A stretch of DNA of 32,689 nucleotides from a virus. Below, one piece after another: positions 1,340-25,094 of this stretch. Numbering within the stretch: the stretch's first letter is position 1; each line of letters starts with the position of its first letter. The stretch lies in IMG/VR virus record IMGVR_UViG_3300028030_000040, positions 1-32,689 of that record. One strand, written 5' to 3'. The notes under the pieces were generated by a model. That model made no database searches, was not told the DNA's origin, and was given only the letters and a program-made list of their open reading frames with translations. Made by a program: the position numbers and the translations under genes.

Positions 1340-1366
1340 CTTAAACCTCTATAAAATATATAGCCG

Positions 1367-2468: not shown

Positions 2469-2555
2469 GCTTCCACCCGTCCAACACCCACACAGCACCA
2501 ACAGCCCACCCCACAGCCCCGTCTGTATCCGGCAAGGCAATGTATGCTAATTCTG

Positions 2556-4941: not shown

Positions 4942-5072
4942 GGATGCCAACCAAACTGTGCACTCATAGAGTCAACCACAGCCACAATCGCCATGGCAGA
5001 CATAACAAAGACGACAACCGATGGGAGTATCCACTCCCTAAGCATTGATTTCAGCCGTTGCTTTTCGAACAT
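4938..5072 (-). CDS. Small single-pass membrane protein
   Basis: A 44-residue protein: a short basic N-terminus (MFEKQRLKSMLREW) followed by one membrane helix (ILPSVVVFVMSAMAIVAVV, about residues 16-34) and a short tail ending GWHP. The ATG at 5072 has GGAG elements upstream. The frame is open to 5135 but the earlier Met has no ribosome site. It overlaps the end of the upstream gene by 35 bases. An early phage membrane peptide of this size could act in host takeover or superinfection exclusion; nothing in the sequence decides this. Confidence 0.55.
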   Translation of the reverse strand: MFEKQRLKSMLREWILPSVVVFVMSAMAIVAVVDSMSAQFGWHP

Positions 5073-5232
5073 AGCTCCTGTCTCCTGTTTGCTCCGATTT
5101 TTTAATAGCCTCCGCCATGATCTGTGCCTTTTCATTTGCCGAAAGAGAAAACGGGGCAGACTGGCGGAGAAGCTGGGAAAGCATGTACTTTATTTCGCAC
5201 AGCTCTTTTTTTAATTCAGTAAGTTCACTCAT
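5038..5232 (-). CDS. Small helical early protein
   Basis: A 64-residue, Glu/Lys-rich helical protein (MSELTELKKELCEIKYMLSQLL looks like a short coiled coil), followed by SANEKAQIMAEAIKKSEQTGDRSYVRKA, which resembles a second helical pair. The start ATG overlaps the TGA of the Cro-like regulator gene (ATGA), fixing the start at 5232. It is the second gene of the leftward early operon. No known family. Confidence 0.6.
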   Translation of the reverse strand: MSELTELKKELCEIKYMLSQLLRQSAPFSLSANEKAQIMAEAIKKSEQTGDRSYVRKATAEINA

Positions 5233-5792
5233 GCCGCAGCAGCACCAGGGCATACATGATGCCCGTGAGCCTCGCACTTAATTTGCTGCCGATCATAAAT
5301 CCGCTTTAATTCCTGGCATGAATGCACACTTGCCATGACAAGCTCAAATTCCAGAATCTCAATACCCCGCTTGACATCAATTACCTGTTCCATCTCTCTT
5401 TCAAAAACTTCCAGATAATCATGCCGTTGCTGGAAATCCTTGTCAGAAAAACGCTCGGTAAGAACGTCAAGAGCGGCAGCCCCTTCCACCATTTCCTTTC
5501 GCAATCTGGAAGCAATGACAGCAGGATCTGTCTTGATATTGTTAAGTTCAGGAAATTGCCGCAGGATGATCTGAGCCCGCACGGGGCAAGCTCCACAAAA
5601 CTCTGTAAGAATGCTCACGTCATGGCAAGCCTTGGCGATCCTGATAAGGACATCAGGAGTAGGACCGTTTTTTAACTCGTTGTTTTCTATCTTGGAAACA
5701 GCAGCCTTACAGATTCCGATACGTTTTCCAAGTGTAGAGCCGGTGTATCCTGCTCTCTTCCGTGATTCTTTTATTTTTTTTCCTAAATCCAT
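5229..5792 (-). CDS. XRE-family HTH regulator, Cro/CII position
   Basis: A 187-residue regulator with an N-terminal XRE helix-turn-helix (LGKKIKESRKRAGYTGSTLGKRIG, AVSKIENNE, about residues 3-45) and a long helical C-terminal region without an S24 protease fold. The ATG at 5792 is preceded by AAGGAG at eight bases, which decides the start against the longer open frame. It is the first gene of the leftward early operon and is transcribed divergently from the repressor gene, the position of Cro or an early activator. Four Cys in the C-terminal part (two in the FCGACP segment, residues around 65-70) are noticeable. Exact role inferred from position. Confidence 0.75.
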   Translation of the reverse strand: MDLGKKIKESRKRAGYTGSTLGKRIGICKAAVSKIENNELKNGPTPDVLIRIAKACHDVSILTEFCGACPVRAQIILRQFPELNNIKTDPAVIASRLRKEMVEGAAALDVLTERFSDKDFQQRHDYLEVFEREMEQVIDVKRGIEILEFELVMASVHSCQELKRIYDRQQIKCEAHGHHVCPGAAAA

Positions 5793-5826
5793 TGTGTGTG
5801 CTCCTTTTGTTTCTATGTTACGGAGA

Positions 5827-5856
5827 AGCCTACACCATGCCACATAGAGTTGTCAA
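5827..5856 (-). promoter_or_regulatory. Candidate leftward early promoter
   Basis: On the minus strand a consensus -35 TTGACA (5856-5851) is followed after 18 bases by TAGGCT (5832-5827), a weak -10. Transcription would start about 35 bases upstream of the Cro-like gene. The -35 shares its bases with the candidate rightward promoter, so the two directions would compete. Confidence 0.4.
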
Positions 5857-5879
5857 TGTTTAATTCCACATTTTATATA
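5850..5879 (+). promoter_or_regulatory. Candidate rightward promoter
   Basis: TTGTCA (5850-5855), an 18-base spacer and TATATA (5874-5879) form a good sigma-70-type promoter facing the repressor gene, giving a leader of about 100 bases. It could act as a repressor-establishment promoter, since a second, leaderless promoter lies closer to the gene (inference). The direct repeat ACATTTTATA (5868-5877) falls on its -10. Confidence 0.4.
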
Positions 5880-5967
5880 GTTTCTGTGTTGCATTGGCTG
5901 TATGGGCTGATATCCATAAACAATCACGTTTTTGCTCTCTGCTTTGTGGAATAGGTTACATTTTATA
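5863..5967. promoter_or_regulatory. Operator-like repeats in the lysogeny switch
   Basis: Two exact repeat pairs lie in the divergent region: the inverted pair ATTCCACA (5863-5870) and TGTGGAAT (5945-5952), and the direct pair ACATTTTATA (5868-5877 and 5958-5967). One copy of the direct repeat overlaps the -10 of the distal rightward promoter. The other overlaps the -35/spacer of the proximal promoter. They are the best candidates for repressor or Cro binding sites. Confidence 0.45.
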
Positions 5968-5984
5968 GATTAATGCTTTATCAT
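5956..5984 (+). promoter_or_regulatory. Candidate promoter for leaderless repressor mRNA
   Basis: TTACAT (5956-5961), a 17-base spacer and TATCAT (5979-5984) place the transcription start about seven bases downstream, which is the A of the ATG at 5991. There is no Shine-Dalgarno before that ATG. This matches the leaderless cI message made from PRM in lambda. Confidence 0.45.
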
Positions 5985-5990
5985 ATTGGT

Positions 5991-6491
5991 ATGACACAAT
6001 TAAGAGTTGAAATAGGACAGCGGATAGTGTCTGTGAGAAAACGCATTAAAATGACACAGACTGAGCTTGGCGACATTGTGGGGCTGAAAGGAAACGTCTT
6101 GAGCAAATACGAACTCGGAGATGTCCACCAAAAAGCAGAAGCCCTTGTAAAAATAGCAGAGGTGGGGAAGGTCTCCCTGGACTGGCTGCTGACCGGGAAA
6201 GAATTTATAAAAGAAAAGCCGGACAATATCGCAGCAACAATCCATCCGGGGACAAAAGAGGCGGCAGAAAGAATCACCGCTAACAGCACACGGGCAACCG
6301 TATCAATCCCCCACCTGAAATGGGTAGTGGAATGGATGGATAACTATTTTACAAACGACAGTGAGCAAGCCTTGCTGTTTTACGAGCAGCTACGAGACGA
6401 CATGCCAAGCTTTAAAGAGTACATTGCAAGAGTTAAAAAAAAGAGCAGTGGTGTTGATAATGCAGAGGATAGCAAGATAGTATCGGCATAA
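5991..6491 (+). CDS. XRE-family phage repressor (CI position)
   Basis: A 166-residue repressor. The N-terminal XRE helix-turn-helix (IGQRIVSVRKRIKMTQTELGDIVG, VLSKYELG, residues about 8-45) is followed by the VSLDWLLTG segment typical of phage repressors, then a linker and a short helical C-terminal domain. No S24/LexA peptidase domain is present, so RecA-stimulated self-cleavage is not expected. Induction would need an antirepressor, which the phage does encode at 29298-30014. I prefer the ATG at 5991 over that at 5973 because the helix-turn-helix begins there and a promoter is positioned for a leaderless transcript. It heads the rightward lysogeny operon. Confidence 0.8.
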   Translation: MTQLRVEIGQRIVSVRKRIKMTQTELGDIVGLKGNVLSKYELGDVHQKAEALVKIAEVGKVSLDWLLTGKEFIKEKPDNIAATIHPGTKEAAERITANSTRATVSIPHLKWVVEWMDNYFTNDSEQALLFYEQLRDDMPSFKEYIARVKKKSSGVDNAEDSKIVSA

Positions 6492-6523
6492 ACAGAAAAA
6501 CTATTTAACAATCCGGGGACAAA

Positions 6524-7039
6524 ATGGGATATGTAGAAAACAATTTAATGAGCGGCGAGAAAGTCTTATACCGGGGAAAGGTCCACTGGTTTGTTTATGT
6601 CCCTGCTGCCATATTCTGGTTTTTATCTATTTCTATAATGTTTGATTCGGAAGCTGCCCCGGTAGTTGTAATCATTGCCCCGATTGCTATTTTTTTTACG
6701 GTAAGGGCTCTCATAGTCTCAAAATCAACAGAGGTAGCAGTAACAACACGCAGAATCATTGCCAAGACCGGATTTTTAAGAACATCAACAATCGAGCTAA
6801 ACCATCAAAAAGTTGAAAGCTTTGCAGTAAATCAAGGTCTCGCTGGTAACGTGTTCGGATTTGGCACAATCACAATAAACGGAACAGGCGGCATCCATAC
6901 GCCCATAAAAAACATCGCAGACCCGCTACAATTCAGGCGGAAAGCAATGGAGGCAATAGACGGAAAACAAAACCCGGTAAAAAGGAACCCGGCAGCAAAA
7001 CAAGAGGACGATCAGCCAATAAGATACGTCATAAAATGA
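6524..7039 (+). CDS. Bacterial PH-domain membrane protein
   Basis: A 171-residue protein of the bPH (YdbS/YdbT-like) type. The N-terminus (NNLMSGEKVLYRGKVHW) leads into two membrane helices (about residues 22-40 and 44-62), and then the PH domain with TEVAVTTRRIIAKTGFL, IELNHQKVESFAVNQGL and FGFGTITINGTGG. It lies in the lysogeny operon between repressor and integrase; its stop overlaps the integrase start (ATGA), so it is expressed in the lysogen. A membrane protein made from a prophage's repressor operon could alter the host envelope or block superinfection, which is inference from position. The family assignment is firm. Confidence 0.85.
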   Translation: MGYVENNLMSGEKVLYRGKVHWFVYVPAAIFWFLSISIMFDSEAAPVVVIIAPIAIFFTVRALIVSKSTEVAVTTRRIIAKTGFLRTSTIELNHQKVESFAVNQGLAGNVFGFGTITINGTGGIHTPIKNIADPLQFRRKAMEAIDGKQNPVKRNPAAKQEDDQPIRYVIK

Positions 7040-8055
7040 GCGTGAGACCCCATCCAACAAAAGGGAAAGGATGGTGGCAAATAGATATAGGACACGGAAA
7101 AAACCGCCAGCGTCCGGCGTTCCGTGGCAGTTTTGAGGATGCGGCAGCATTCGAGGCAGCCATCAGGCAAAAACGCCCGGAAGAGGTCAGGAGTTCAGCC
7201 CCGAAAATAAAAGAATTGTTTGTCCCGTTCCTGCACTGGTACACGTCGGAAGCCGCAGAAAGAACGATAAAAGATATCCGGTTTTCAATAGACCTCTATT
7301 TCGCCCCCTGGTTTGGCAATCTGCAACCATCAAGCCTTAACCTGTCACTCCTCAACAACTTTCGAGATACACTGTCAAAAGACGGTCTCAGTCCGGCAAC
7401 AATCAACAAACACCTGAACTATTTTTCCACCCTGCTAAAATGGGCAGCAGAAAACGGACACTGCCAACCACTCCCATTCCGCCTGCCAAGATACCCAAAA
7501 AAAAAGACCACAGCAAAACCAAAAAGACCGCTCACAACAAGACAAATAGACGCAATCTACAAACAGATTCCAGAAGAGTACCGGCTGATATTTTTACTCA
7601 TGGCAGATCACGGGCTACGGATCGCCGAGGCGACAAGCCTAAAAGCAGAGGACATAAACGAGCACAACGAGACTTTTACTTTTTTGGGAAAAGGAGGGAA
7701 ATATAGGACTGTCCCGTATATGTCCAACAGGTTTGCAAAAGTGCTATCAAAAGCCATGGACAGCCACCCGGACGGATACTTGACGATAAACAAAAAAACA
7801 GGAGGAAAATACACAACCATGTGGAAGCCGTTAAAAAGAGCGGCAAAAGAGGCAGGAATAAAAAGAGAGGTTAACCATCACTTGTTACGCCACAGCTTTG
7901 CGACAATCGCAGCCCAAAGCGGAATGAATCCCCATGCCCTGCAGCGGATACTGGGTCACGCAAGCATAGAGACAACAAATAAGATATACACCAACGTGAG
8001 CCTTGATTTTGTGGGAAATGAGGGCAGAAAACTCAGGGACAAAAAAGGTAATTGA
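7036..8055 (+). CDS. int: Phage integrase, tyrosine recombinase
   Basis: A 339-residue integrase of the XerC/D-like family. An N-terminal region is followed by a SAM-like core-binding domain (about residues 57-140) and the catalytic domain with all active residues: Arg 195 (HGLRIAE), Lys 222 (GKGGKYR), His 282-x-x-Arg 285 (HHLLRHSF), His 308 (LGHASIE) and nucleophile Tyr 318 (NKIYTN). Its start overlaps the PH-domain gene. Within 65 bases after its stop lies a tRNA-Gln 3' half that should be attP. The first candidate arm-type repeat overlaps its last codons. This is the enzyme expected to integrate the phage into host tRNA-Gln. Confidence 0.95.
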   Translation: MSVRPHPTKGKGWWQIDIGHGKNRQRPAFRGSFEDAAAFEAAIRQKRPEEVRSSAPKIKELFVPFLHWYTSEAAERTIKDIRFSIDLYFAPWFGNLQPSSLNLSLLNNFRDTLSKDGLSPATINKHLNYFSTLLKWAAENGHCQPLPFRLPRYPKKKTTAKPKRPLTTRQIDAIYKQIPEEYRLIFLLMADHGLRIAEATSLKAEDINEHNETFTFLGKGGKYRTVPYMSNRFAKVLSKAMDSHPDGYLTINKKTGGKYTTMWKPLKRAAKEAGIKREVNHHLLRHSFATIAAQSGMNPHALQRILGHASIETTNKIYTNVSLDFVGNEGRKLRDKKGN

Positions 8056-8057
8056 CA
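8047..8057 (+). repeat. Candidate integrase arm site, left
   Basis: GGTAATTGACA at 8047-8057, overlapping the integrase stop. The identical 11-mer recurs at 8199-8209 on the other side of the tRNA core, in the same orientation. Position and identity suggest arm-type binding sites of the integrase. Confidence 0.5.
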
Positions 8058-8119
8058 GTATGCCACAAGACCACCCAGTAACATACTGGAATAAAGGCAG
8101 ATAAAAAACGTCAAACTAG

Positions 8120-8164
<45 letters not shown>

Positions 8165-8167
8165 TAA

Positions 8168-8238
8168 AAACGGGTGTTTAGCTATTTGTTGGCGTATTGG
8201 TAATTGACATACGTTGACATATCGCTAGATACCCGTTT
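8168..8238. repeat. Inverted repeat around right attP arm
   Basis: AAACGGGT (8168-8175) and ACCCGTTT (8231-8238) are exact inverted copies flanking the right-arm region, with an inner TAGC/GCTA pair. On the minus strand the second arm is followed by a short T run, so the element could also act as a weak terminator for the leftward lysis operon. It may instead be an accessory-protein site in attP. Confidence 0.35.
8199..8221 (+). repeat. Candidate integrase arm sites, right
   Basis: GGTAATTGACA at 8199-8209 repeats the left-arm 11-mer exactly. A second, partial copy (CGTTGACATA, 8212-8221) follows at once, giving two TTGACATA elements in tandem. One site on the left and two on the right of the core is a usual attP arrangement. 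Confidence 0.5.
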
Positions 8239-8251
8239 ATTTTTTATTTGT

Positions 8252-8455
8252 TCATGGGGCTGTTGATAGCTGCAAGGCAGACTGTGGGCAGTCTTTTATT
8301 GCTGTCTCGATGTTTTCAATATTATCCTGCAGGTGTTTTTCTGATATCAATATTTCCCCGGCGTGTTCAGTCATAAATCCAGGCAGGGTGTCATTACACA
8401 TGCCGCACGATACATACCCGGCACAGATATAAGGCATTGCTTTTAAAATATACAT
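8252..8455 (-). CDS. Ferredoxin-like small protein
   Basis: A 67-residue protein that aligns in length and layout with monocluster [4Fe-4S] ferredoxins: ICAGYVSCGMCNDTLPGF near the start, an acidic middle, and AIKDCPQSALQL at the end, matching the closing CP..A motif. The cluster motif is irregular: two Cys are in register (SCGMC) and the CP Cys is present, but the Cys that should precede the first P is Leu and the first Cys is displaced. Cluster binding is therefore uncertain. The ATG at 8455 has a GAGGG ribosome site and overlaps the lysozyme gene. It is the last gene before attP, the usual place for a moron or for host DNA picked up by imprecise excision. Confidence 0.5.
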   Translation of the reverse strand: MYILKAMPYICAGYVSCGMCNDTLPGFMTEHAGEILISEKHLQDNIENIETAIKDCPQSALQLSTAP

Positions 8456-8901
8456 TTGCCAGCCCTCATTTGCTCCGACAGCTCCATTGCCCGGTTCCCT
8501 ACCTGCACAGACCATAATGAGTTTAGCATTTCATCAGCAGCCCCTGCGTAGTCTTCTGCTTCCATCTTTTTTAGCATCTTTTCAAACTTTAACAGTCCGG
8601 AAATGCCGAGATTGTAAGCCATGTTGGTAAGCACACTTTGTCTTGTCGGGGTGAGACTTGACCAGCATTTTATTACATGCTGCAAGGTGTTCTTTATTTT
8701 CAGGACCGACTCTTCCAGCAACATGGATGCCTGTCGCTCTGTGATTCCTGCGGACAGGTTAAGCCCGTATCCTATGGTAAGATGACCTGTTGTGTCTGTA
8801 TAAGGTCGTGAGCGGAATCCTTCGTGCTTTTTTAGCTGGTTGATTACGTTTTGCACTCCTGTCATGCTCCCGGCATGATCGATCATACTATCAACAGTCA
8901 T
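8443..8901 (-). CDS. T4-type lysozyme (GH24 endolysin)
   Basis: A 152-residue muramidase that hydrolyses the MurNAc-GlcNAc bond of peptidoglycan. The T4 lysozyme catalytic triad is present with exact family spacing: Glu 27 (KKHEGFR), Asp 36 (PYTD) and Thr 42 (LTIGYG). The downstream N-M-A-Y-N-L-G segment and W (SLWS) also fit GH24. There is no N-terminal signal or SAR helix, so release needs a holin; a candidate lies two genes upstream. The ATG at 8901 follows GGGAG at short spacing. It is the endolysin of the lysis cassette. Confidence 0.95.
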   Translation of the reverse strand: MTVDSMIDHAGSMTGVQNVINQLKKHEGFRSRPYTDTTGHLTIGYGLNLSAGITERQASMLLEESVLKIKNTLQHVIKCWSSLTPTRQSVLTNMAYNLGISGLLKFEKMLKKMEAEDYAGAADEMLNSLWSVQVGNRAMELSEQMRAGKCIF

Positions 8902-8960: not shown

Positions 8961-9413
8961 TCAGGACACACCATTTATTTCGTTTTCCTTTTCTTTTTTA
9001 AAAATCTTATAGCCAATCGTGCTTACTGCCAGAAAATAGGCGAAGCCCTTTATCGTCCTCCAAATCCTTTGCATCCAGTTTCCATCACGGAAGAGGTACA
9101 CAGAGAAATTAAAAAGGAACATGGCATTGCTAATCATAAAATCCGTCAAGGTATCTGAAGCCGTTGACCACGACTCGTCATGGATATGTCAGATGTGGGA
9201 AACTTTTTTACCGCCGATTGTTTCCGGTATTATTTTGTCACCGATTCCTGATCCTGCACCGCAGAATGTGGGGTACTCGTCAACTGACAATGGCAGAAAA
9301 GAAAACGATTTTGGGGCGAGGTATGATACCCCTTCCAGACTTACAGTTTTAAACTGCAGGCGTTTTTTGTTCTTCGCTGCCGTTCTTTTCTGTCGTGTAT
9401 TTGCTGATTGCAT
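8961..9413 (-). CDS. Phospholipase A2-like phage protein, candidate selenoprotein (in-frame TGA)
   Basis: One reading frame from ATG 9413 (AGGGGG site six bases upstream) to the stop at 8961, interrupted once by TGA at 9191-9189 (codon 75). Read through it, the 150-residue product resembles a phage family I know with a CGAGSGIGDK..PETI motif, then Cys-x-x-His-Asp, and an aromatic 'R..A..Y..AV...G' tail. Here the motif reads TGA-His-Ile-His-Asp (His 78, Asp 79), so the TGA stands exactly at the conserved Cys. The His-Asp pair matches the catalytic motif of phospholipase A2-type enzymes. A selenocysteine at a Cys site is the classical mark of a selenoprotein. A nonsense mutation is the alternative. 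The downstream half has no good independent start. It sits in the lysis cassette before the lysozyme gene. Confidence 0.6.
9145..9188 (-). promoter_or_regulatory. Candidate bacterial SECIS hairpins after the TGA
   Basis: Two alternative hairpins follow the TGA on the transcript. A: CCAUGA/UCGUGG (9183-9168) with loop CGAG, 11 bases after the TGA, closer than usual. B: GUCAA/UUGAC (9168-9145), loop beginning 25 bases after the TGA with G as second base, optionally with an inner GG/CC pair. B meets the usual distance and loop-G rules of bacterial SECIS elements, but the stem is short. Function unproved. Confidence 0.3.
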
Positions 9414-9591
9414 CGACTGCCCCCTGGATAGCAATATAAATTCCGCTGAGATAATAGATCAGATCGCTGTTGCTGTTTTTTATTGTCCCCATTGTCTCGG
9501 CAAGCACTGCGGAAGTATCAACACCATGCGACTGGGACACGGCAAGCACTGCAGCGGCTGCCAGCACACTTAATTTTTTTGATATTTTCAT
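9349..9591 (-). CDS. Small membrane protein, holin candidate
   Basis: An 80-residue protein with a signal-like N-terminal hydrophobic segment (KKLSVLAAAAVLAVSQSHG, about residues 5-22) and a second moderately hydrophobic segment (DLIYYLSGIYIAIQGAVDAI, about 43-62), then a charged tail. The ATG at 9591 follows AAGGGG at six bases; the open frame continues upstream but lacks a start signal. Size, topology and place just upstream of the lysozyme fit a class II holin. If the first segment is cleaved it would instead be a small periplasmic or membrane protein. The next gene begins inside its 3' end. Confidence 0.5.
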   Translation of the reverse strand: MKISKKLSVLAAAAVLAVSQSHGVDTSAVLAETMGTIKNSNSDLIYYLSGIYIAIQGAVDAISKYTTEKNGSEEQKTPAV

Positions 9592-9601
9592 TTTTTGCCC
9601 C

Positions 9602-10276
9602 TTACTGATAATCGATAGTAACCTTTGTGGCTTTACATCCGACAGGTCCAAACACAGACGCCCTGGTGCCGTTTGCCTCTTCCGGTTTGTTTTTGGTGCC
9701 ACAGAAATAGATTGCCCCCTGGCTGCCCTTGCCGAAATCATCGGCAGCATCCGGCACGTTTAAGCCGCTGCACCCACCATCAAAACTTATTTTGATCGGT
9801 CCGCCGTAAGCTGTACCTGTTTTTGGCAACCAGGTAAAAACTCTGTTGTGGGCAGGCTGATAGCTCATGCTGTGTGTTTCTGTCTTTGCTGAGCCTGCAG
9901 GTGGCTTTATCAATCCTTCCGGGATCGTCACGCCTGGCAGTATTTCTGTGGGTTTCTGTGCTGCGGTGTCACCGGATAACGCCTCAACAACTCCGCCCAG
10001 GCTTTTTGCTCCGGACAATGCGATACTGTCCGGAATAGACATCTCTGTTTTTGGTGATATCGTGTTTGCCGGGTCGTTGTCTGTCGTTTGATTTGTTTTC
10101 TGGTCTGTCTGTGCATCTACTGATAGCGGCGTGTATAACACGATGTTCCCGCTGCCATTATTGCGGATTGTTATATCGTATTCCCGTTTTGTGATGTCTC
10201 CGGTGGTGTCCGCAGTTGAGCAAGCAGCCAGCAAAAACATAATTATTATTCCGCAGCCAATATTAATTTTTCTCAC
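9602..10276 (-). CDS. Phage lipoprotein
   Basis: A 224-residue predicted lipoprotein: basic start (MRKINIG), hydrophobic segment and lipobox LAAC with the acylated Cys near residue 19, then a Thr/Asn/Asp-rich linker and a folded C-terminal domain with several Cys (GGCSGL, YFCGTK, GPVGCK). It overlaps the upstream coiled-coil gene by 14 bases. Lipoproteins in lysis cassettes can be outer spanins, but those are usually much shorter. Superinfection exclusion or envelope modification is equally possible. Localisation is well supported; function is unknown. Confidence 0.7.
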   Translation of the reverse strand: MRKINIGCGIIIMFLLAACSTADTTGDITKREYDITIRNNGSGNIVLYTPLSVDAQTDQKTNQTTDNDPANTISPKTEMSIPDSIALSGAKSLGGVVEALSGDTAAQKPTEILPGVTIPEGLIKPPAGSAKTETHSMSYQPAHNRVFTWLPKTGTAYGGPIKISFDGGCSGLNVPDAADDFGKGSQGAIYFCGTKNKPEEANGTRASVFGPVGCKATKVTIDYQ

Positions 10277-10706
10277 GCAATACCCCCATTCCTTTTAATT
10301 CTCCCCGGAGGGATTGTATAAATCCAACGATTTCACCAAGCTTTTCCCCGTGGGTGTCTTGCTTTGAGCTGTGCCGCTCAATATCTTTTTTGATATCATC
10401 AATCGCCCGGAATATGTCCCGCTGGCATTTACTCTGCAATATGTCGTGCTGCGGTTCCGTGATGCACTTTCCAATGTGTGCATTCATCTTATCGTGTTTT
10501 GATTTAATAACAGCCATACAGTCGCTGTGTTTTTTTATTTCGTCTTTCAGATAATTTATTTCTTTGTCGCTTGTCTCTTTATGGTGGGAAATATCTGCCG
10601 TCTGCTTTGCCTGTTGCCTGACAAACACCCCATAGTACATAACGGCGGTAAAGATGATCGGGATAAACAGTAAAACAATTTCAAACCATGTTGCGATTTC
10701 ACTCAC
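10263..10706 (-). CDS. Membrane-anchored coiled-coil protein, lysis region
   Basis: A 147-residue protein with one N-terminal membrane helix (WFEIVLLFIPIIFTAVMYYGVFV, about residues 7-29) and a long charged helical region (about 35-135) with coiled-coil-like heptads, containing three Cys. The GTG at 10706 has a GGGAG site five bases upstream. The topology fits XhlA-like holin partners or inner-membrane spanins, and the overlapping downstream lipoprotein would make an inner/outer pair. Both are inference. It is the first gene of the lysis module. Confidence 0.6.
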   Translation of the reverse strand: MSEIATWFEIVLLFIPIIFTAVMYYGVFVRQQAKQTADISHHKETSDKEINYLKDEIKKHSDCMAVIKSKHDKMNAHIGKCITEPQHDILQSKCQRDIFRAIDDIKKDIERHSSKQDTHGEKLGEIVGFIQSLRGELKGMGVLREKN

Positions 10707-10753: not shown

Positions 10754-11818
10754 TTAGTTGAGTAATGGCATTGAGCCATTTGTGTGGTATGTTTTTCCAC
10801 CAAAGCATCCAGCAAGATCCGCCTCAGTAGTAGCCACACAGATGTCATCAAAAGCGTAATACTGTTCTGAGTAATTAGTAAAAACAGGATCAAACTCATT
10901 GAATGAGTTACCACCGAACATAACCATATTCCAATTCTTTCTTGGGCTTGCTACAGAGCCAGAATCACTCCATGCAAGCGTACTGTCAGAAAAGAGGAGT
11001 CTCCCGTCTACCCACGTTTCAGACACCCCATCAGCTACGCCCACAGCACTATTCATTTTTACATGATAGACGTATTTATGCCATGAGCCATCACCAGGTT
11101 CTCCAGGATCATTAAAGGCTGGACCAGTTCCGTCATATTGCCCTCCATCCGAATAGTAGTCTGAACGGTTGCGTACATGGGGCGGTGTTGCGTTATCTGG
11201 GTAATATGTGTTCTCATACCGGAACGCTGTGAAATGACTATAATTAGCATTCCCACCGTTCCAAGCAGCTATTTGAGCGTTATTAATTGGACGTTGAGCA
11301 CCAGCGTCAAAGAATGTAAATGGACTTATACCTGCTGATTCGTCCCAGTGGGTTATCCTAAACGTCTTTACTTGGGGATCAACACTATTTGTAAGTGCCA
11401 TACTGTAACTTGTGTCCCACTTCATGTAGAACTGGACCCACATTTCAGAGTACCCTGACGGGAGATAAAGGCTCAAAATTCCATCGGAACAGTAATGAGC
11501 ACCCCCGCCACAGCTTGTTTCTCCGGATTCGTGCCACACAGTTAGCCCTTTTCCCGATGTGCCACGATAGTTTTCGTTGCTTATGTTCAGCGTTTGGTGT
11601 GAATTATTTGCTCCGTAAACAGTATTGTCTACTCGGTAGTTGTGAAAATTGTCGGGGATACTTGCCTCGCCATTGTAGTACGCCAATGCTGTGTTTGCAG
11701 ACGTTGGCTGTATAGGCTCCCAATCTGCCTGAGCGTCAAAGCTTTCCTCATACAGAATTGCTGAGCTTGCTTGTTGGCAATAAAGTAAAACCAGTGTTAA
11801 TACAAAAATCAATCGCAT
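10754..11818 (-). CDS. Secreted lectin- or lyase-like protein in fibre region
   Basis: A 354-residue protein with a clear Sec signal peptide (MRLIFVLTLVLLYCQQASSA). The mature part looks like a concanavalin-A-like beta sandwich: YEESFDAQADW at the start, GLTVWHESGETSCGGGAHYC, MWVQFYMKWD in the middle, WHKYVYHVKMNS..GVADG, WVDGRLLF and YAFDDICVATTE near the end, the layout of jelly-roll carbohydrate-binding or polysaccharide-lyase-type domains. The ATG at 11818 follows GAGGT; the open frame extends upstream inside the previous gene. In the fibre region this could bind or cut a surface polysaccharide. A signal peptide is unusual for a virion protein. Confidence 0.65.
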   Translation of the reverse strand: MRLIFVLTLVLLYCQQASSAILYEESFDAQADWEPIQPTSANTALAYYNGEASIPDNFHNYRVDNTVYGANNSHQTLNISNENYRGTSGKGLTVWHESGETSCGGGAHYCSDGILSLYLPSGYSEMWVQFYMKWDTSYSMALTNSVDPQVKTFRITHWDESAGISPFTFFDAGAQRPINNAQIAAWNGGNANYSHFTAFRYENTYYPDNATPPHVRNRSDYYSDGGQYDGTGPAFNDPGEPGDGSWHKYVYHVKMNSAVGVADGVSETWVDGRLLFSDSTLAWSDSGSVASPRKNWNMVMFGGNSFNEFDPVFTNYSEQYYAFDDICVATTEADLAGCFGGKTYHTNGSMPLLN

Positions 11819-12393
11819 AAGCTTACCTCGAATACCAAATCCCTGGTTGTGTACTGAGCCATACTCCACCCAGAAGACCCATAGTAATAATCGCCATCTG
11901 CATATTGATTTCCATCAGCTGCATACCTCATGAAAGAGTGTCCTGAATCAGAGACAACACATCCCATATAATATGTAGTCCCTGCTGTAAGACTTGGGTG
12001 ATTTGAGAATACTGCTTCATGCTTGACATTTGCCGTGCTAGTCCAAGTGATACTTGCTGAGTCAGTATCAAGGTAGGTAGTAAGGTCTGCAGATGTTCCT
12101 ATCCTGCACTCTATCGTAGAAGAGTTATTATCTCCACTTATCGTGGCAGATACTGAGTACACAGAGCCAGTTGAACTGACAATAAAACTTTGCCCAAACG
12201 CCAAGCCTGCCCCACTAAAACTACTATCTGTCACTTGTTGTGATTGGTCAACAGTCCCAGTATCGCAAGTTGGAGGAGTTACGCCAGTGGATACACTATC
12301 CATCTGCCCAGGAAAAGTACCCCAGCCAAAGCAAACACCAGGTAGCATCAACAGGACAAAAAGTACCCCAAGCATTTTACTTATTCTGACCAT
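11809..12393 (-). CDS. Secreted beta-rich protein in fibre region
   Basis: A 194-residue protein with a Sec signal peptide (VRISKMLGVLFVLLMLPGVCFG) and a Ser/Thr-rich beta domain (QQVTDSSFSGAGLAFGQSFIV, VYSVSATISGDNNSSTIECRIGT, LTAGTTYYMGCVVSDSGHSFMRY). This pattern resembles small beta-sandwich carbohydrate- or receptor-binding modules often attached to fibres. The ATG at 12393 has GAGGT upstream and lies 13 bases inside the fibre gene before it. Second of three signal-peptide genes in a row. Exact ligand unknown. Confidence 0.6.
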   Translation of the reverse strand: MVRISKMLGVLFVLLMLPGVCFGWGTFPGQMDSVSTGVTPPTCDTGTVDQSQQVTDSSFSGAGLAFGQSFIVSSTGSVYSVSATISGDNNSSTIECRIGTSADLTTYLDTDSASITWTSTANVKHEAVFSNHPSLTAGTTYYMGCVVSDSGHSFMRYAADGNQYADGDYYYGSSGWSMAQYTTRDLVFEVSLCD

Positions 12394-14063
12394 GTGCCGA
12401 CCTCGCTTGTAATGTACCAATCATCGGCATTGGCAGCTATAAAACAAATCTTATCCCCTGCAGCACCACCTGATGCCCTTGCCGTTGCTGCCGTTCCACG
12501 CACACCATCAATCACAAGGTAATCACCAGTAGCCGGAGCGAGTTGAATAATTGCAGCCACTCCTTGCCCTGCAGTAAAGCAGCCAGAATATCCTGCTACT
12601 GCATCCGGCAAAGTCAATGTCATTGCAGCCGTTGCCAAGATAAAAGAACCCCTTGCATTTGTCGCAGTAAGGGTAGTATCCGTGGCGTAGGACAACGTAT
12701 TAGTCGTTGCTGTTAATACTCCTGTGTGGTCTGTCGCCGTATCAGCTTTAACCGTATCTGCATCATAAGCCTGGACATTTACCCCAATATCAGCATCTTT
12801 CAGAATTGTAGAATCAGCAGGCTCATAAACCCCTGTATGCGTATGGTTCCCTATCGCAAGCTGCCCAGCTCCGGTCCCCACATCTCCGGCAGTATCAAGA
12901 GTGCCGTAAGTAATATCACTCGTAACAGCGATACTCCCAACTAAACTTCCACCCTCTGCCATCCGCAAATCACCACCAACATTATAAATTGATTCCTCCC
13001 CTGCTGCCGGAGTGTATGCGGTATTTTCTCCGAATACTTGTGCTCTGTCTCCATCTGCTGCAGAAGACAAAAACTCATCTGCAGAAACTGTGGTAAACGC
13101 CCCGGCAGCCGGAGTACCACTCCCGATAGCCGGAGGGCTCGCAAAAGTAGCAGCATTGGCGTTGGTAGCATCATAAGCCTGCACATCAACCCCAATCTCA
13201 ACCCCAAGATTTGCCCGACTCGTAACAGCACTTGCAACATCAGACAGATTATTTGTGCTCAACATATCACCAGTCCCGCCAGCCGAACCGCTACTGGCAG
13301 CAGTCACCCGCCCATCCTCATCAACAGTGATGCTCGACAAAGTATAACTCCCGGCAACAACACCGGTGCTTGCAATCTCATCACTGCCCACCGCTCCGGT
13401 GGCAATGGTCAAAGCCGTCGATCCTGTAACGTCGCCTGTATGTGTGGCATTGCTGATTTTTGCACTATTGGCAGCAACAGCACTATCAACAGCAATATCA
13501 GCCTTTAACGCATTATTTATATTGTACGCCTGGACAGTCGTGCCAATATCTGCAGAGTTTAAAAGGGTAGCGTCGTATCCCTGGACAGTTACCCCAATAT
13601 CAGCAGCCTTTAGCGTAGTGGCATCATATCCCTGCACCGTCGCCCCAATATCCGCAGATTTTAGCAACGTCGCATCATAAGCCTGAACATCAACCCCAAT
13701 CTCAACCCCAAGATTTGCACGGCTCGTAACAGCACTGGCAACATCAGACAGATTATTTGTACTCAGCATATCACCACCCCCACCACTGGCAGGAGAGATC
13801 CACGACCTTACGCCAGCAGTAGTTGACGATAATATGTATCCAGTCGCTGCAGGATTACCAAGCCCCGGTTCCTTACTGTCCCAGTTCAAAATATCAGATG
13901 CAGTAATCCCAAAAGAGTCAAGCCCATACAACTCCGTAAAATTTGCATTTATTTTTACCGATTCAACCCGGAAAGGGTCTGTGGTGCCGTCGCCTATGGT
14001 CTGCTGTGCCGCCTGTGCCGACACACTGAGCAGCATAATCATAATCAAAATTACAAATCTCAT
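12381..14063 (-). CDS. Tail fibre-like protein with signal peptide and repeats
   Basis: A 560-residue fibre-type protein. After a Sec signal peptide (MRFVILIMIMLLSVSAQA) comes the SVKINANFTELY segment, a common N-terminal motif of phage fibres, then low-complexity repeats: 'ADIG.TVQ.YDAT.L' units in tandem (about residues 130-180) and a block starting DMLSTNNLSDVASAV that occurs twice, about 165 residues apart. The C-terminal part (NHTHTGVYEP, SFILATAAMTLTLPDAV) resembles fibre tip and intramolecular beta domains. The ATG at 14063 follows CAGGGG. It is the likely main host-contact fibre. The signal peptide is odd for a virion protein, which normally assembles in the cytoplasm. Confidence 0.8.
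   Translation of the reverse strand: MRFVILIMIMLLSVSAQAAQQTIGDGTTDPFRVESVKINANFTELYGLDSFGITASDILNWDSKEPGLGNPAATGYILSSTTAGVRSWISPASGGGGDMLSTNNLSDVASAVTSRANLGVEIGVDVQAYDATLLKSADIGATVQGYDATTLKAADIGVTVQGYDATLLNSADIGTTVQAYNINNALKADIAVDSAVAANSAKISNATHTGDVTGSTALTIATGAVGSDEIASTGVVAGSYTLSSITVDEDGRVTAASSGSAGGTGDMLSTNNLSDVASAVTSRANLGVEIGVDVQAYDATNANAATFASPPAIGSGTPAAGAFTTVSADEFLSSAADGDRAQVFGENTAYTPAAGEESIYNVGGDLRMAEGGSLVGSIAVTSDITYGTLDTAGDVGTGAGQLAIGNHTHTGVYEPADSTILKDADIGVNVQAYDADTVKADTATDHTGVLTATTNTLSYATDTTLTATNARGSFILATAAMTLTLPDAVAGYSGCFTAGQGVAAIIQLAPATGDYLVIDGVRGTAATARASGGAAGDKICFIAANADDWYITSEVGTWSE
13168..13272. repeat. About 105-base direct repeat, copy 1, in fibre gene
   Basis: A stretch of about 105 bases that recurs at about 13671-13776 with only a few substitutions. 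It encodes the DMLSTNNLSDVASAV...VQAYDAT block of the fibre protein. Such near-identical blocks allow domain loss or gain by recombination and are frequent in fibres. Confidence 0.7.
13671..13776. repeat. About 105-base direct repeat, copy 2, in fibre gene
   Basis: Second copy of the block at 13168-13272. Shorter 'YDAT' repeats of about 51 bases (roughly 13530-13690) adjoin it, so this half of the gene is repeat-built. Confidence 0.7.
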
Positions 14064-14065
14064 AC

Positions 14066-14431
14066 CTATACCCCTGTAATTGCTGTTATCAAACCATCGA
14101 CCACAGTTATCTGCTTATTATCAAATGTCATAAACGACCCACTCGCACCACTTGTCCCGCTGCCACTGGCTGCTATTGTCACTTCGTCGGCTCCGTTTGT
14201 GATTGTCACATTTGCTCCTGCTGCCAGTGTCTTCAACCCCAAAACAACCCCGGCTTTTGTCCCGGCAAGTGTGCCGGTACCGGTCCCCTGATCTGTCAGC
14301 GTATTCGCTTCGCCACCAGAGGCCCCAGGTGATGCAATCCAATTCCCATCCTGCCTGGAATAAGGTGTCCCATCCGCCGGTGGTTCGCCAATCCCTGCGT
14401 ACCTGATAGCCTTAATCGTAAACTCTGCCAT
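14066..14431 (-). CDS. Small fibre or appendage protein
   Basis: A 121-residue protein, Gly/Ala/Thr-rich (EANTLTDQGTGTGTLAGTKAG), with a beginning EFTIKAIRYAGIGEPP and an end FMTFDNKQITVVDGLITAITGV. The pattern resembles short phage appendage proteins that carry a beta-helical or trimeric segment. I chose the ATG at 14431, which overlaps the upstream stop as TAATG and has GGAGG upstream, over the earlier in-frame Met. Two bases separate it from the large fibre gene, so the two are probably coupled. Confidence 0.6.
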   Translation of the reverse strand: MAEFTIKAIRYAGIGEPPADGTPYSRQDGNWIASPGASGGEANTLTDQGTGTGTLAGTKAGVVLGLKTLAAGANVTITNGADEVTIAASGSGTSGASGSFMTFDNKQITVVDGLITAITGV

Positions 14432-14811
14432 TATTGCACCCTCCGAGGGCTTACACATTCGCCCACTGTGAGCCGTGCCTTGTCTACTACAAAGGCCCGT
14501 CCGTTATTATCAATCACCCGGATAGAGCCGTAAACAGTCCCGGCAGCAAGTCCAAAGGTTTCGTCGTCTGTTATTTCCCCGGAAAAGATCCCGTTTGGGG
14601 CATCCTGTGGGGCTATCGCCTTGTCTATCTCCGGCGTGTTGGCATCGTAGCAGCTGCGGCTGGTGGTCATTGCAACATAGAGCATCCACCCGGTGATGTC
14701 TTTGGGCTGATCGTCGTCGTCCGTGATCTGGAAAGAAAAGGGTACGGTCTCGCCCCTGGTAAACTCCGGAAAAAAAGCCCCGTTATGTCCGTCAAGCCCC
14801 ACTGCTTTCAT
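14431..14811 (-). CDS. BppU-like tail appendage protein
   Basis: A 126-residue protein with the pattern 'F.RGETVPFSFQITDDDDQPKDITGWMLYVAM' in its first half, similar to the N-terminal domain of phage upper baseplate proteins (BppU/DUF2479 type), which attach fibres to the tail tip. The second half (GIFSGEITDDETFGLAAGTVYGSIRVID) completes the beta sandwich. The ATG at 14811 has GAGG at eight bases. Attachment role is by resemblance. Confidence 0.6.
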   Translation of the reverse strand: MKAVGLDGHNGAFFPEFTRGETVPFSFQITDDDDQPKDITGWMLYVAMTTSRSCYDANTPEIDKAIAPQDAPNGIFSGEITDDETFGLAAGTVYGSIRVIDNNGRAFVVDKARLTVGECVSPRRVQ

Positions 14812-14815
14812 GTTT

Positions 14816-15460
14816 TTATCCTCGTATTGCGAGTGTCCACGTCCCACTGAGCGGGGTAAACCCTGTCAGATCAACGGTCAGCGAGTTGACACCTGTGCTT
14901 GTGATTGTTGTTTGCTGTGTGACTTCCACGCCAGACCCGTTCCAGACTGTCACGGCTGCCGGATACTCAATATTCATGTTGTGAGTGACTGTGAGTGTTG
15001 TTCCTGTCAGGTCGCCATTTAAAAAAGACAGATCATACGTTTTGCTCCCATACCCATACTGACGCAGGTCTGCTGCCGTGTTGGCTGTGTATGTTATATC
15101 GAGCAAACCAAGCAACACATAATCACCGGTTGGCGGAGAAGCAGACAACGCAACCGCCCCACTGCTGTTTACATACACCCAGTATTTATATGGTGTGTCT
15201 GCGTCCGGTGCAGGGGTAAAAATAAGATATGTACTGGTAGTCGAGCCATAAGCCCCTGCCCGGAAAAAAGTACAGCCGTCTATGTCTATTCTGTCAGAGG
15301 CGGTAAAGGTTATGTCGCCACCGGTCAAAACCTTATTTGCACCAAGTACAGAACCGATAATGGTATCCACAATTTCGGCATTATCCGCCCACTCCTCGTC
15401 CCAATTAAACTTATTTGATTCCGGTGTCCGAAGCCGGGCGATTGCAGAGTAAGTCGTCAA
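14816..15460 (-). CDS. Tail appendage protein, paralogue A
   Basis: A 214-residue structural protein starting at TTG 15460 with GAGGTG six bases before it. It shares its plan with the next gene upstream: a start with W...DNAEIVDTIIGSVL, a central beta region with a 'GDYVLLGLLDI' strand, and a C-terminal domain with 'THNMNIEYPAAVTVWNGSG' and a closing 'GTWTLAIRG'. The C-terminal domain type is widespread in phage fibre and baseplate proteins. The neighbouring paralogue suggests tandem duplication followed by divergence. Probable fibre base or baseplate-edge component. Confidence 0.65.
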   Translation of the reverse strand: MTTYSAIARLRTPESNKFNWDEEWADNAEIVDTIIGSVLGANKVLTGGDITFTASDRIDIDGCTFFRAGAYGSTTSTYLIFTPAPDADTPYKYWVYVNSSGAVALSASPPTGDYVLLGLLDITYTANTAADLRQYGYGSKTYDLSFLNGDLTGTTLTVTHNMNIEYPAAVTVWNGSGVEVTQQTTITSTGVNSLTVDLTGFTPLSGTWTLAIRG

Positions 15461-15464
15461 GCTG

Positions 15465-16136
15465 TCACCTCGTTAATGATATATGCCAGGTGTTGTACGC
15501 TGGCATGTGTGATGTGATATCAACTGATATGGTATTACTGTCCACTTCCGTCACGCTGTCCGGTATCCGCATAACTCCGCTATCGTCCCACACCGTTACC
15601 ACAGGCTTTTCAGTGAGCCCCAGGTTGTGCGTATAGGTAACAGTCCCACTGCCGTAAATGTCGGTGTAATCAAAGTCCATACCCTCTGTGCGTGCCACGT
15701 TTGTAATCTCAACCATAATCCGGCTGATATCGCAAAAATTAACAATGCCCAAATCAGGATCACCAATGGAGATAGCAAGCAAAACAAACTCGCCGCTCGG
15801 CAAAACGTCGGAATGGGACCGTACCCCGGCATCATCCAGCCATAACCAGTTAAGCTTTAATGGGTTATGATCTGTTGCAGAAGGCACCCCGGCAATAGTC
15901 CCGCCAATGGTCAACGGAATCGTTACCAACTCCCCGCCGATAAAGATCACACCCGGAGCAGTATTGCCGCCCAATCCACCCGACAGTGTAGTGGCACACC
16001 CGGACACCACCCGATTCCTGGACGACAGAGCAAAGGCAATCTTTTCAAAGATCGCAACGTTATCACTCCACGGATATATTCCAGGAGGGTCGCCAACCGG
16101 TGGAGTCATAAGCCCTATATTTGTGCTGTAGTCCAT
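15465..16136 (-). CDS. Tail appendage protein, paralogue B
   Basis: A 223-residue protein with the same plan as the downstream gene: PWSDNVAIFEKIAFAL near the start, 'GEFVLLAISIGD' in the middle and 'THNLGLTEKPVVTVWDDSG' then 'NTWHISLTR' at the end. Its N-terminus (STNIGLMTPPVGDPPGIYPW) resembles those of phage baseplate-edge proteins. It is four bases from the start region of its paralogue and four bases from the upstream gene, so all are co-translated. Specific role unknown. Confidence 0.65.
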   Translation of the reverse strand: MDYSTNIGLMTPPVGDPPGIYPWSDNVAIFEKIAFALSSRNRVVSGCATTLSGGLGGNTAPGVIFIGGELVTIPLTIGGTIAGVPSATDHNPLKLNWLWLDDAGVRSHSDVLPSGEFVLLAISIGDPDLGIVNFCDISRIMVEITNVARTEGMDFDYTDIYGSGTVTYTHNLGLTEKPVVTVWDDSGVMRIPDSVTEVDSNTISVDITSHMPAYNTWHISLTR

Positions 16137-16139
16137 AAA

Positions 16140-16592
16140 TCAGCTTGATATGGTAATAGTCCAAACCTGTCGCAGCGTATCTCCTGCCGCCTTTTCCTTT
16201 GCCGCAAATACTGTCCGGCAAAGCATGGTCCCAGCAGAACTGGAGTTAAAAATACCAGCTTCGGTAATGGTGCCGGTGCCTTCACCTGCTGCAAAATCTG
16301 CCGTATAGGTAACTTTGTTATTTTCTGTCCCGGTACCGGCAACGGTGGACGTAAGAGCGTTCCGGTGTGCCTCGGTGCCAAGTGCTGTATCGGTGAGGGC
16401 TGCGGTGGTTGTCCCGGTGCCGATAGCCATGTGCGACATTGCCGCCTGTGCCTGGTCGGAGAGTTGATCCACAACGTGATTCCGCCCGGCAGAAACAATA
16501 AGGTTTGTAACCACATCATGTGCCTTTACCTTTCCGTCCGGACCTGTCAAAGTCTGCTCCAGAACACCGCTCATCACAATATTTCTATTCAT
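16140..16592 (-). CDS. Phage tail structural protein, conserved
   Basis: A 150-residue protein of a widespread phage type: 'N.IVSAGRNHVVDQL' near residue 30, 'AIGTGTTTAALTDTALGTEAHRNAL' in the middle and 'TEAGIFN...GTMLCRTVFA' toward the end. I know this pattern from tail or fibre-associated proteins but cannot name a characterised function. The ATG at 16592 has GGAG at eight bases; a longer open frame upstream overlaps the tail-tip gene and is ignored. Confidence 0.65.
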   Translation of the reverse strand: MNRNIVMSGVLEQTLTGPDGKVKAHDVVTNLIVSAGRNHVVDQLSDQAQAAMSHMAIGTGTTTAALTDTALGTEAHRNALTSTVAGTGTENNKVTYTADFAAGEGTGTITEAGIFNSSSAGTMLCRTVFAAKEKAAGDTLRQVWTITISS

Positions 16593-16605
16593 TTTTTTTA
16601 CTCCA

Positions 16606-19600
16606 TTATTTAGGGCTGCCAAAAGGCACAAGCCCGAAGCCGTCGCCAAGGGGCGAACCAAAACCGCTATCAGTAAGTAACTCATCCGCAAAGGCAGACA
16701 CATCGTAAGTATCAAGCACCTCGTCAGACATGGAAAAGCTATCGTCAAGCACCACAACCATTTCCGCCACAAGACTATCGCCAAGGGTGGCAGTCTCTGC
16801 CGTTTCCAAAACCATAACGATTGTATTTACCAACACGTCAGCAAGGGTAGCTGTGTCGGCATCAACAGCCACAACCTGAGATACCAGCACATCAGCAAAA
16901 GCTGTCTGATCCTCAGATATCACCCCATCATGCTCCTCTATACTGAGAGCGTCCAGAATGGTCATGGTGTCCTCGGCACTGACAAGAATAGTCCGCTGCC
17001 GGATAGACTCCGCCAAAATCTTATACAGATTAATAACCGAGTTTTTAGCAGACCCAAAAATCCTGTCAGCAGACCGAATCACAAGCCGCCGTCTGATAAG
17101 ATCGGTAAAGTTCCGGCTCGTCACCGTAACCACATCCTCTTTTTCCAGATCAAACTGAGACAGATAACAGGCAAACTCGTAAAATGTAGACGGGCTGCCC
17201 TTGAGCCACATATAAAAATCAGCCAACGATTCCGCCATTGCCTGATCCGTAACCAGATCAAACAGAAACCCGGCATCATTCCGCCGCAATCCGTTTTTGC
17301 TGATGGAATCCGTATCGGCAGCATTGGCGGACATGGCATACAGGTTTTTATCATCCCCGGTCTGTGTATGATCTTTCTTAAAAAATACGTTCACATCGTT
17401 GACGATCTCCGCCACCGGCTGCCGCCTGACTTTAACGGACTTAATCTGCAGATCCTGCGGTAAAATACTTTTAACGCTTCCCCAGGAGTCCGACTTTTCC
17501 CGGACAATCAGTTTTGCATTTCCGCCGGACCAGATAAGGCGGCACCGTGATTGATAACAGATATTTTTTATGGCAGTCCTGACAGATATCTCAGCAGGTA
17601 TCACCCCGTTCAGTGAGTAACCAAGGGCGGTAAGCCGTACCGCTGCCGCTGCTGTGTCAAGACGTGAGGCATCAAGCCCGGCAGTGGTGGTGAGCAGATG
17701 GGTAATCACTTCGTCCGGGCGGTTTCCAATAGCCCCGGTGGGTGAGCAGGTAACATCGTCGGAAAAGTTTATTTCCCGCTGCCGGTACTCCACCAGAAAA
17801 TTTATATAGGTGACAATTATCTTGGCACTGTCAGCCGTGCCGGTGTATCTGAGCTGTACTTCACGGTTTTGGAAAAACGCCCAGTCAATGGTTTCCAGAT
17901 ATTTAGTCAGGTCAAACCGCTGCACAACAGAGCGGGAGGAACTTGCGGTAACAATATTTTCCAGCTGCCGGTTGGTGGTGGAAAGGTCGTCAACATCGGT
18001 TGCTGCTTTGATCGTGTTGGTTGTTTGCTGCAGCCCGTCAACAGAACCTGACGCAGTTTTTTGGGTGGTGATAGGGATGGGCGTTTCAGATGTGACAGAG
18101 GCAGAAACGTAAATAGTAATGTCAACAATCTGCACCCGTATAAGCGGTGTCACAGAGGTACAATATCCACCCCCGGCATCGAGCCGCACACTTGTCTTGC
18201 TCGTAATCCATGCCCCGTGAGTGCTGGTATCTCCTGCTACTATCCGCTCGCCGCCAATCTCAACCCACGGACCATCAGACTGATAACAGGTGTAACTGAC
18301 AACTTTAAACTGGACAAAAGCCCGTGTGGTGTTGGCGTTGTACGGACCATAAGGGAGATACAGAGTATCACCCCACGACCCGGCATCCATTTCCTGAGTG
18401 GAGGTGTCTATGGTACCAACTACGGCAGACTCCGACCCATTAAGATCATGCAGATGATCGTCGGTGTTGGACAAAAACGAAGGATCAACACTATCATGCG
18501 TATGATCGCCACCAGTCTGATGCGTATGCCCATGGTCAATATCAACCTCAGCCGAAAAATCAACGGTATCCGCCTCATTTGGCTTAACCAGAGTCCCCAC
18601 CACCCCGATACCATCAACCCACACCTCAACAGAATCATGCAAATACTGAGCAGTAGCCCAGTGCTCCACCTGCAAAAACGCCCGGACAACCTCCCCGTCA
18701 TCAACAGCAGCATCTGTCTGTATCACAGCCAAAGGCGTATAATTTACCGACAGCAAAGCCCCACTGCTTTTTTTGTCCTCAAGATAGGCATAATGCGGCT
18801 GGAATGCCCCGTTTGCAGCGGTGGCAGCATCAAAGTCCAGTGATGTTTCCCTGGCTCCCCGTGAGTAACCCGTATATGTCGGTTTTTCGGAAAAGGTAAT
18901 AGTTGCCGGGTTAGCCGTCGGCTGGACACTATATGTCCCACTAACAGCAGGGACACCACCAACCCGCACATCATCAATGGCAGAGCACTCCTGCCCCACA
19001 ATATAAGTATGGTCGGTGATATGCTGCACCACGGCAGCACCGTCGGAATGTTCGGCAGCTGTGGTGCCATCTGTCCCCCGGACAGATACGGTAAAGGTAT
19101 CGGCATCCCGTCCGCTGTACTCCATTATCTCTGTGTCAATCTGGATCTTGCCCGATGCCGGAAAACCAAGGTCATCAAGATCACCCTGCACATTGACGAT
19201 GGTAGGCAGCAACAAAATAGAGCCGGACATAACAGCTTCCGGGGCAGTTTTGCCCACAAGGGTAGCCACCTGACCAGGCGAACCAACAATAAGAGGGATA
19301 CCCCGGTTAATGTCAGACTCCGCAGCATACGGGTAATCGTCAGCACTGAGTAAATCGCCAACCGGTCCATCATATCGCATGGAGATGGAAACAAGGTCAA
19401 GGGTGAGCAGGGCGGATGCCTCGCCGTAGTGGATCGGGTCACGGATCACAAAACGGTCTATCAATGCCTTGTCGCTGTCCGCCGTCCCCACAAACCACTG
19501 ATACAAGTCCACCTCAACATTTTCAGGCGACTCATATAAAAACCTGTCGGAAAAACGGCTGTCCCCACCATTCCAGAGGGTAACAGACATCTGCCGGATC

Positions 19601-19806: not shown

Positions 19807-20171
19807 GCCACGACCTCCAGAACCAACGTGCCGGAAAACCAGTCTTCCGGATTTTCCTTGAAATCAAGTTTCGGTGAACGGATAATAACGGTCATACTCT
19901 CGCCGGATTCATCAACAAAAGTAAACTCGTTCATGGTCCCCTCTGCAATATCGTCAAACCATGTCTGCAGCAGCAGATAATCAGCCTTCGGCATCGTCTT
20001 AAAAAAGAGGATGCGGGTATAAATATCCGGGGCAAGTTCTTCACGCTGCGTTGTACTGTCTGCGGTACGGTCCACAACCTGCATCTTTTCTTGAGGGCGA
20101 GAGACTGGCAGGGAAATATTCTGCGAAAACTGGAGCACATTGGCTCCGGATTCAAAACGGATAACCGGCAT
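19803..20171 (-). CDS. Distal tail-type protein
   Basis: A 122-residue beta-rich protein (VIRFESGANVLQFSQNISLPVSRP; ILFFKTMPKADYLLLQTWFDD; FTFVDESGESMTVIIRSPKLDF) lying between the tape measure and the tail-tip hub. In siphophages this position is held by the distal tail or minor tail protein that joins tube and tip, and the fold pattern fits. It overlaps both neighbours by one and four bases. The family is not certain, and it may be a minor tail adaptor. Confidence 0.6.
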   Translation of the reverse strand: MPVIRFESGANVLQFSQNISLPVSRPQEKMQVVDRTADSTTQREELAPDIYTRILFFKTMPKADYLLLQTWFDDIAEGTMNEFTFVDESGESMTVIIRSPKLDFKENPEDWFSGTLVLEVVA

Positions 20172-21943: not shown

Positions 21944-21947
21944 GATG

Positions 21948-22214: not shown

Positions 22215-22228
22215 TCGCTCCAGGTATG

Positions 22229-23082: not shown

Positions 23083-23085
23083 CTT

Positions 23086-24247: not shown

Positions 24248-24248
24248 A

Positions 24249-24833: not shown

Positions 24834-24839
24834 GGTTTT

Positions 24840-25016: not shown

Positions 25017-25034
25017 TTTCCTTCCTCTTTAAAG

Positions 25035-25064: not shown

Positions 25065-25094
25065 GTTTATTGCTACACTGCTACGACTATCAGC

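Follow-up and report, generated by a model that had tools for sequence, protein, structure and literature searches.

Why would a phage place export signals on a tail-fibre-type protein and on the products of the two genes that follow it, when virion tails and fibres are normally assembled in the cytoplasm? The question is raised by the stretch of DNA analysed here (the window), which is the whole of IMG/VR record IMGVR_UViG_3300028030_000040 (32689 bases). The window represents a temperate siphophage, in which head genes of the HK97 type and tail genes are accompanied by an integrase, a repressor and an endolysin. Its late genes lie on the minus strand and run from the terminase (32654) through the head and tail genes to the fibres (16-12 kb) and the lysis genes (10.7-8.4 kb). 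An HNH nuclease (21-467) is found at one end and the small terminase (32202-32654) at the other; with these genes at opposite ends, the sequence may be a complete genome that was cut open close to the cos site. The host was not found: terminase relatives (40-47%, with one partial match at 56%) occur in gammaproteobacteria and alphaproteobacteria, and a search of 369 genomes with a tail gene of the window gave one weak match only.

Signal peptides and genomic setting of the three genes

The relevant features of the late region are listed below.

15465-16136 and 14816-15460: two fibre-like genes that lack signals
14066..14458, minus strand: a third signal-less gene of this kind, with a tail-fibre-type product, bounding the cassette upstream
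12381..14063, minus strand: tail-fibre-type protein, 560 aa, Sec signal peptide MRFVILIMIMLLSVSAQA with predicted cleavage before A
14010..14063, minus strand: signal peptide of this fibre, 18 codons
11809..12393, minus strand: small beta-rich protein, 194 aa, signal peptide MVRISKMLGVLFVLLMLPGVCFG, four cysteines after the signal
10754..11818, minus strand: lectin/lyase-like protein, 354 aa, signal peptide MRLIFVLTLVLLYCQQASSA, four cysteines, ends FDDICV...GSMPLLN
10263..10706, minus strand: coiled-coil-like protein with an N-terminal TM segment, possible inner-membrane spanin (weak match to phrog_739, E 0.064); downstream boundary, where the lysis region begins
9602..10276, minus strand: predicted lipoprotein, lipobox LAAC, overlapping the spanin-like gene
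9349-9591, minus strand: small protein, 80 aa, signal-like N-terminus and a second hydrophobic (TM) segment, weak holin and filamentous-coat-like profile matches
8443..8901, minus strand: endolysin without signal peptide (phrog_7, E 2.5e-25)

Three consecutive minus-strand genes, 14063-12381, 12393-11809 and 11818-10754, each begin with a Sec signal peptide, after which the predicted mature proteins start with AQQ, WGT and ILY, respectively. The lengths of the second and third products are counted from ATGs that lie inside the listed ORFs, by 9 codons for gene two and by 17 codons for gene three (ORF listed at 11869). Both ATGs have GAGG about 8 bases upstream, both genes begin about 10 bases before the preceding gene ends, and all three signal-peptide starts are preceded by a GAGG/GGGG-type ribosome site. 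The N-termini possess the positive n-region, the hydrophobic core and the small residues at -3 and -1 of Sec (SPase I) signals, with a weaker cleavage site (C-x-G or G-x-G) in the second protein.

Signal peptides were called with a home-made rule-based caller in place of SignalP. In a benchmark with classical sequences, the caller recovered 12 of 12 known signal peptides; its background rate is about 6% (80/1322) of the gene calls of at least 100 aa in phage-related loci, any start in the first 60 codons being allowed. Shuffled N-termini of the three proteins reach the observed score in 0.04-0.1% of cases, and the caller detected no signal peptide at the real starts of the structural genes of the window from 14066 to 32654. 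Across the window genes and their relatives, Ala occupies -1 in 21 of 23 predicted cleavage sites, a residue that the caller rewards at this position. The preliminary description had claimed three consecutive fibre-region genes with clear Sec signals, and the sequence bears this out, with ribosome sites at the exact starts.

The cassette formed by the three genes has the same boundaries as in that description (14063-10754) and sits within a run of overlapping late genes, with tail genes on one side and lysis genes on the other. At four-fold sites its GC content is 0.35, compared with 0.50 elsewhere (p 2e-12, sites pooled). These are the lowest values of all late genes, below both the upstream tail genes and the downstream lysis genes; some genes of the early region are as low. 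A composition unlike that of the neighbouring genes, as is looked for in a moron, is thereby found. Neither promoter-like sites (12 versus 14.2 expected, in a scan for sigma-70 promoters) nor terminator-like sites (6 versus 8.2 expected) are in excess around the cassette.

The lipoprotein and the small protein (9349-10276) were considered as further cassette members and rejected on composition and on their spanin-like context. We read both as lysis genes, the lipoprotein being probably lysis-related and outside the cassette. Its gene overlaps that of the coiled-coil protein, and the two may form an unusual spanin pair in which the outer-membrane partner is large (224 aa). Elsewhere in the window, a gene between the repressor and the integrase (6524-7039) encodes a membrane protein, PH-domain-like by eye, and is low in four-fold-site GC; it is a candidate for a lysogen-expressed moron.

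The fibre and its two partner proteins

The fibre contains two NNLSD/VQAYDA repeat blocks and has a C-terminal domain at its end. Its INANFTEL motif is found at residue 38 of the precursor, i.e. residue 20 of the mature protein, and the corresponding motif of 11 signal-less fibres lies at residues 18-30 (median 23). Removal of the signal peptide would thus restore the N-terminal spacing of ordinary virion fibres. The protein therefore carries the repeats and the N-terminal motif of a virion fibre but not the lack of an export signal that goes with them. The virion may use a fibre other than the signal-bearing one, since three further fibre-like genes of the window lack signals.

The C-terminal region of the fibre is homologous to those of signal-peptide fibres from three other loci, L150 (blastp E 1.5e-10), L062 (1.6e-9) and L149 (3.9e-9). 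It contains the only two cysteines of the protein, C495 and C540, 45 residues apart, and the pair is retained 43 residues apart in the same domain of the L149 and L150 fibres. Among signal-peptide proteins having any cysteine, the cysteine count is even in 17 of 20, versus 35 of 72 controls (p 0.0045); this comparison counts homologous proteins repeatedly, and collapsing them gives 15 of 18 (p 0.009).

The partner proteins resemble the partners in other phages only over short stretches or weakly. The mature N-terminus of the beta-rich protein, WGTFPGQMDSVS (WGTFPGQM), resembles the WMGAGQMxGSVP found at the mature N-terminus of proteins from L062, L149 and L150; being similar rather than identical to WMGAGQM, and short (GQM), this likeness is suggestive only. 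For the lectin-like protein, a ConA-like or PL14-like fold is a guess by eye, and no Pfam match was obtained, the cut-off of PL14 (PF21294) included. Comparison of its profile with that of a lectin shared by L149 and a further locus, L200, gave no match, so a common fold of the two is only a guess. Neither partner protein yielded a profile match to any family, and no direct homologues of either were detected in viral contigs, or in phages and plasmids where these were searched. AF2 models were poor (pLDDT 35 for the lectin-like protein and 48 for the beta-rich protein, the latter a low-confidence model mostly of strands) and were set aside. The C-terminal tails of the lectin-like protein (GSMPLLN, window 10754-10790), of L062:6656-8149 (RAKPLLP) and of L150:6430-8259 (GAKPGLLP) look similar, and for the last two the resemblance extends to the DNA (81% over 79 bases).

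Similar runs of signal-peptide genes in other phages

The fibre repeats are widespread in viral contigs, and a signal peptide was found in just 2 of the 80 relatives fetched (L060 and L062); export of such a fibre is indeed unexpected, as the preliminary description had held. The contig L062 (IMGVR_UViG_3300025030_000581) contains nine consecutive signal-peptide genes (945-8709), immediately following the hub and wedge genes of a Mu-type baseplate and preceding predicted amidase-like and holin-like genes. The first gene of this run (945-1754) encodes a fibre-like N-terminus after the signal, and for this reason the region from baseplate to lysis genes holds no signal-less fibre candidate except a 115 aa protein.

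L149 and L150 were reached through the small L062 protein (6100-6675), and L200/L201 in turn through a protein of L149. L149, which carries head genes, a terminase and a portal, has five to six signal-peptide genes in a run, L150 has a signal-peptide fibre and two signal-peptide genes, and L200 has a run of four after a lambda-J-like gene. In each of L062, L149, L150 and L200, several signal-peptide genes come after a fibre that has a signal peptide or is a lipoprotein, in the vicinity of tail or lysis genes, and the fibres are mosaic homologues of each other; the L200 fibre (lipobox LAAC), and perhaps the L150 fibre, look like lipoproteins. Judged from sequence, the same arrangement recurs in at least four other, unrelated and differently built phages. 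The genes after the fibres encode lectin (ConA-like), beta-helix and polysaccharide-lyase-like proteins, with Laminin_G_3, Beta_helix, PL14 and Ig domains. Among about 190 loci, runs of at least three were confined to L062, L149, their duplicate entries and one short envelope/lysis-like run in L100; the run of four in L200, which was not in this set, adds to these. The signal-peptide fibre of L150 was found in none of 398 Pseudomonadota genomes.

The partner genes of three of these phages share a presumably mobile 88-base start cassette (L149:5597, L150:5711, L062:6100) encoding the signal peptide and WMGAGQM, the common protein segment being the signal peptide plus WMGAGQMxGSVP. The L062 copy is 92-94% identical in DNA to those of L149 and L150, and the sequence is unrelated immediately after; L149 and L150 have a longer block in common, which takes in the fibre gene's end as well (664 bases, 80%). 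Downstream of the start cassette, L149 encodes a LamG domain, and L062 and L150 carry other sequences. When WMGxGQM was used as a scan pattern, no contig besides these three had a signal peptide ahead of the motif, and the other matches look like chance.

The mature proteins of L149 and L200 are 88% identical, whereas their signals differ at 9 of 19 residues and both still end in AxA. Such preservation of signal character despite divergence is as expected if export is what selection acts on. A chromosomal relative of the L149/L200 lectin, L209:488-1567 from a Pseudomonadota genome, also has a signal peptide and lies beside glycosyltransferase-like and acyltransferase-like genes. Since this cellular relative has a signal peptide, some of the phage signals may be inherited from host secreted proteins.

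Candidate roles and comparison with known systems

We lean, by a modest measure, towards reading 14063-10754 as a horizontally moved three-gene cassette of the late operon that encodes an exported fibre-type protein and two exported, probably glycan-binding partners. The proteins would be expressed late, cross the membrane via Sec with removal of their signals, and mature in the periplasm with formation of disulphides; lysis would then free them to act extracellularly as an adhesion or depolymerase kit. Because the mature fibre has the N-terminal layout of a virion fibre, it may also dock onto the released particles after lysis, a step that we regard as possible but short of probable. More doubtful is the general proposal that tailed phages of several morphotypes export a receptor-binding fibre and swappable adhesins via Sec, fold them with disulphides in the periplasm and finish their particles at or after lysis.

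Among the roles put forward in the preliminary description, the late-operon setting and the families of the relatives favour secreted adhesins or depolymerases and fibres matured in the periplasm over lysogen-surface proteins, which remain the chief rival. Its statement that no established phage mechanism needs such export agrees with our literature searches, in which open-access text gave no published description of fibres with signal peptides, but single exported proteins encoded among tail genes, such as lambda Lom (PMC12309495), are a precedent.

In the lysogen-surface alternative, the cassette would be a moron, whose expression from the prophage would coat or alter the lysogen surface by means of an adhesin, lectin or lyase, with no role in the virion or in lysis. 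The phage is temperate, the composition of the cassette differs from that of the late operon, its placement among tail genes resembles that of lambda lom (PMC12309495), and the chromosomal relative of the L149/L200 lectin adjoins glycosyltransferase-like and acyltransferase-like genes. We nevertheless consider this alternative unlikely, given the lack of an excess of promoter-like and terminator-like sites around the cassette, the overlap of its genes with one another and their contact with a tail gene, the virion-fibre N-terminal layout and repeats kept by the fibre, and the proximity of the run to tail, baseplate or lysis genes in the relatives. Phages do encode receptor-blocking lipoproteins, e.g. 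T5 Llp, and receptor-binding proteins that are exported, or anchored by lipid, could plug the receptor from the periplasm or outer membrane late in infection, stopping superinfection or re-adsorption to debris. The lipoprotein-like fibres of L200 and perhaps L150 are consistent with such a blockade, but the window fibre has no lipobox, and a blockade would not call for as many as nine genes in a run, lyase-like domains included; we judge it improbable.

Two further alternatives dispense with export altogether. Many fibres dock through their N-terminus and one of the three proteins is a virion-type fibre, so the hydrophobic N-termini could be uncleaved helices that anchor fibres in the virion. 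This is very improbable in view of the positive n-region and the small residues (nearly always Ala) that the window genes and their relatives have at the cleavage site, the presence of such signals on lectins, beta-helices and lipoproteins as well, and the normal fibre spacing that returns once the signal is removed. Untranslated hydrophobic stretches, arising by chance or from wrong starts, would be in keeping with the background rate of the caller in phage-related loci, but the succession of three such genes, each signal-peptide start having its ribosome site, together with conservation and recurrence elsewhere, makes this scarcely credible.

Taken together, the signals of the window and those of its relatives point to production of adhesion proteins outside the cytoplasm in some phages. 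If fibre-type proteins are truly exported, there would be either an extracytoplasmic step in building or decorating tailed-phage particles or a reuse of fibre genes as secreted adhesins or lyases, and either outcome would alter the reading of "tail fibre" annotations in metagenomic phages. Completion of particles outside the cell, if true, would depart from the cytoplasmic assembly line attributed to all tailed phages. The common signal-peptide cassette with its swapped C-terminal domains also offers a means of locating host-range modules by sequence.

Among known systems, secreted PL14 and ConA-like lectins have counterparts in the relatives, where L062 2314-3231 matches PL14 (33.1 bits, cut-off 27) and L149 matches Laminin_G_3, in contrast to the lectin-like protein of the window, which has no Pfam match. 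Ordinary NNLSD/VQAYDA tail fibres, about 80 of them in viral contigs, have their repeats in common with the window fibre, and the spacing of their N-x-NF-x-x-L motif is like that of the window fibre minus its signal; they differ in lacking a signal peptide in all but 2 of about 80 cases, one of these exceptions (L062) lying within the run of nine. T-even gp37 and gp38 form a fibre-adhesin pair in which gp38 lacks a signal peptide. A fibre followed by proteins with a constant N-terminus and a swapped C-terminal domain, as in L062, L149 and L150, would work similarly, but there the constant segment opens with a signal peptide; in the window, the corresponding likeness is confined to the short motif GQM. 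Among exported morons, SodC of Gifsy-2 is encoded in a phage tail region. Lambda Lom is likewise a single exported phage protein encoded among tail genes (PMC12309495). Both are like the window cassette in signal peptide, proximity to tail genes and deviant composition, but they are single non-fibre genes, whereas in the window the fibre itself and its neighbours carry the signals in a run.
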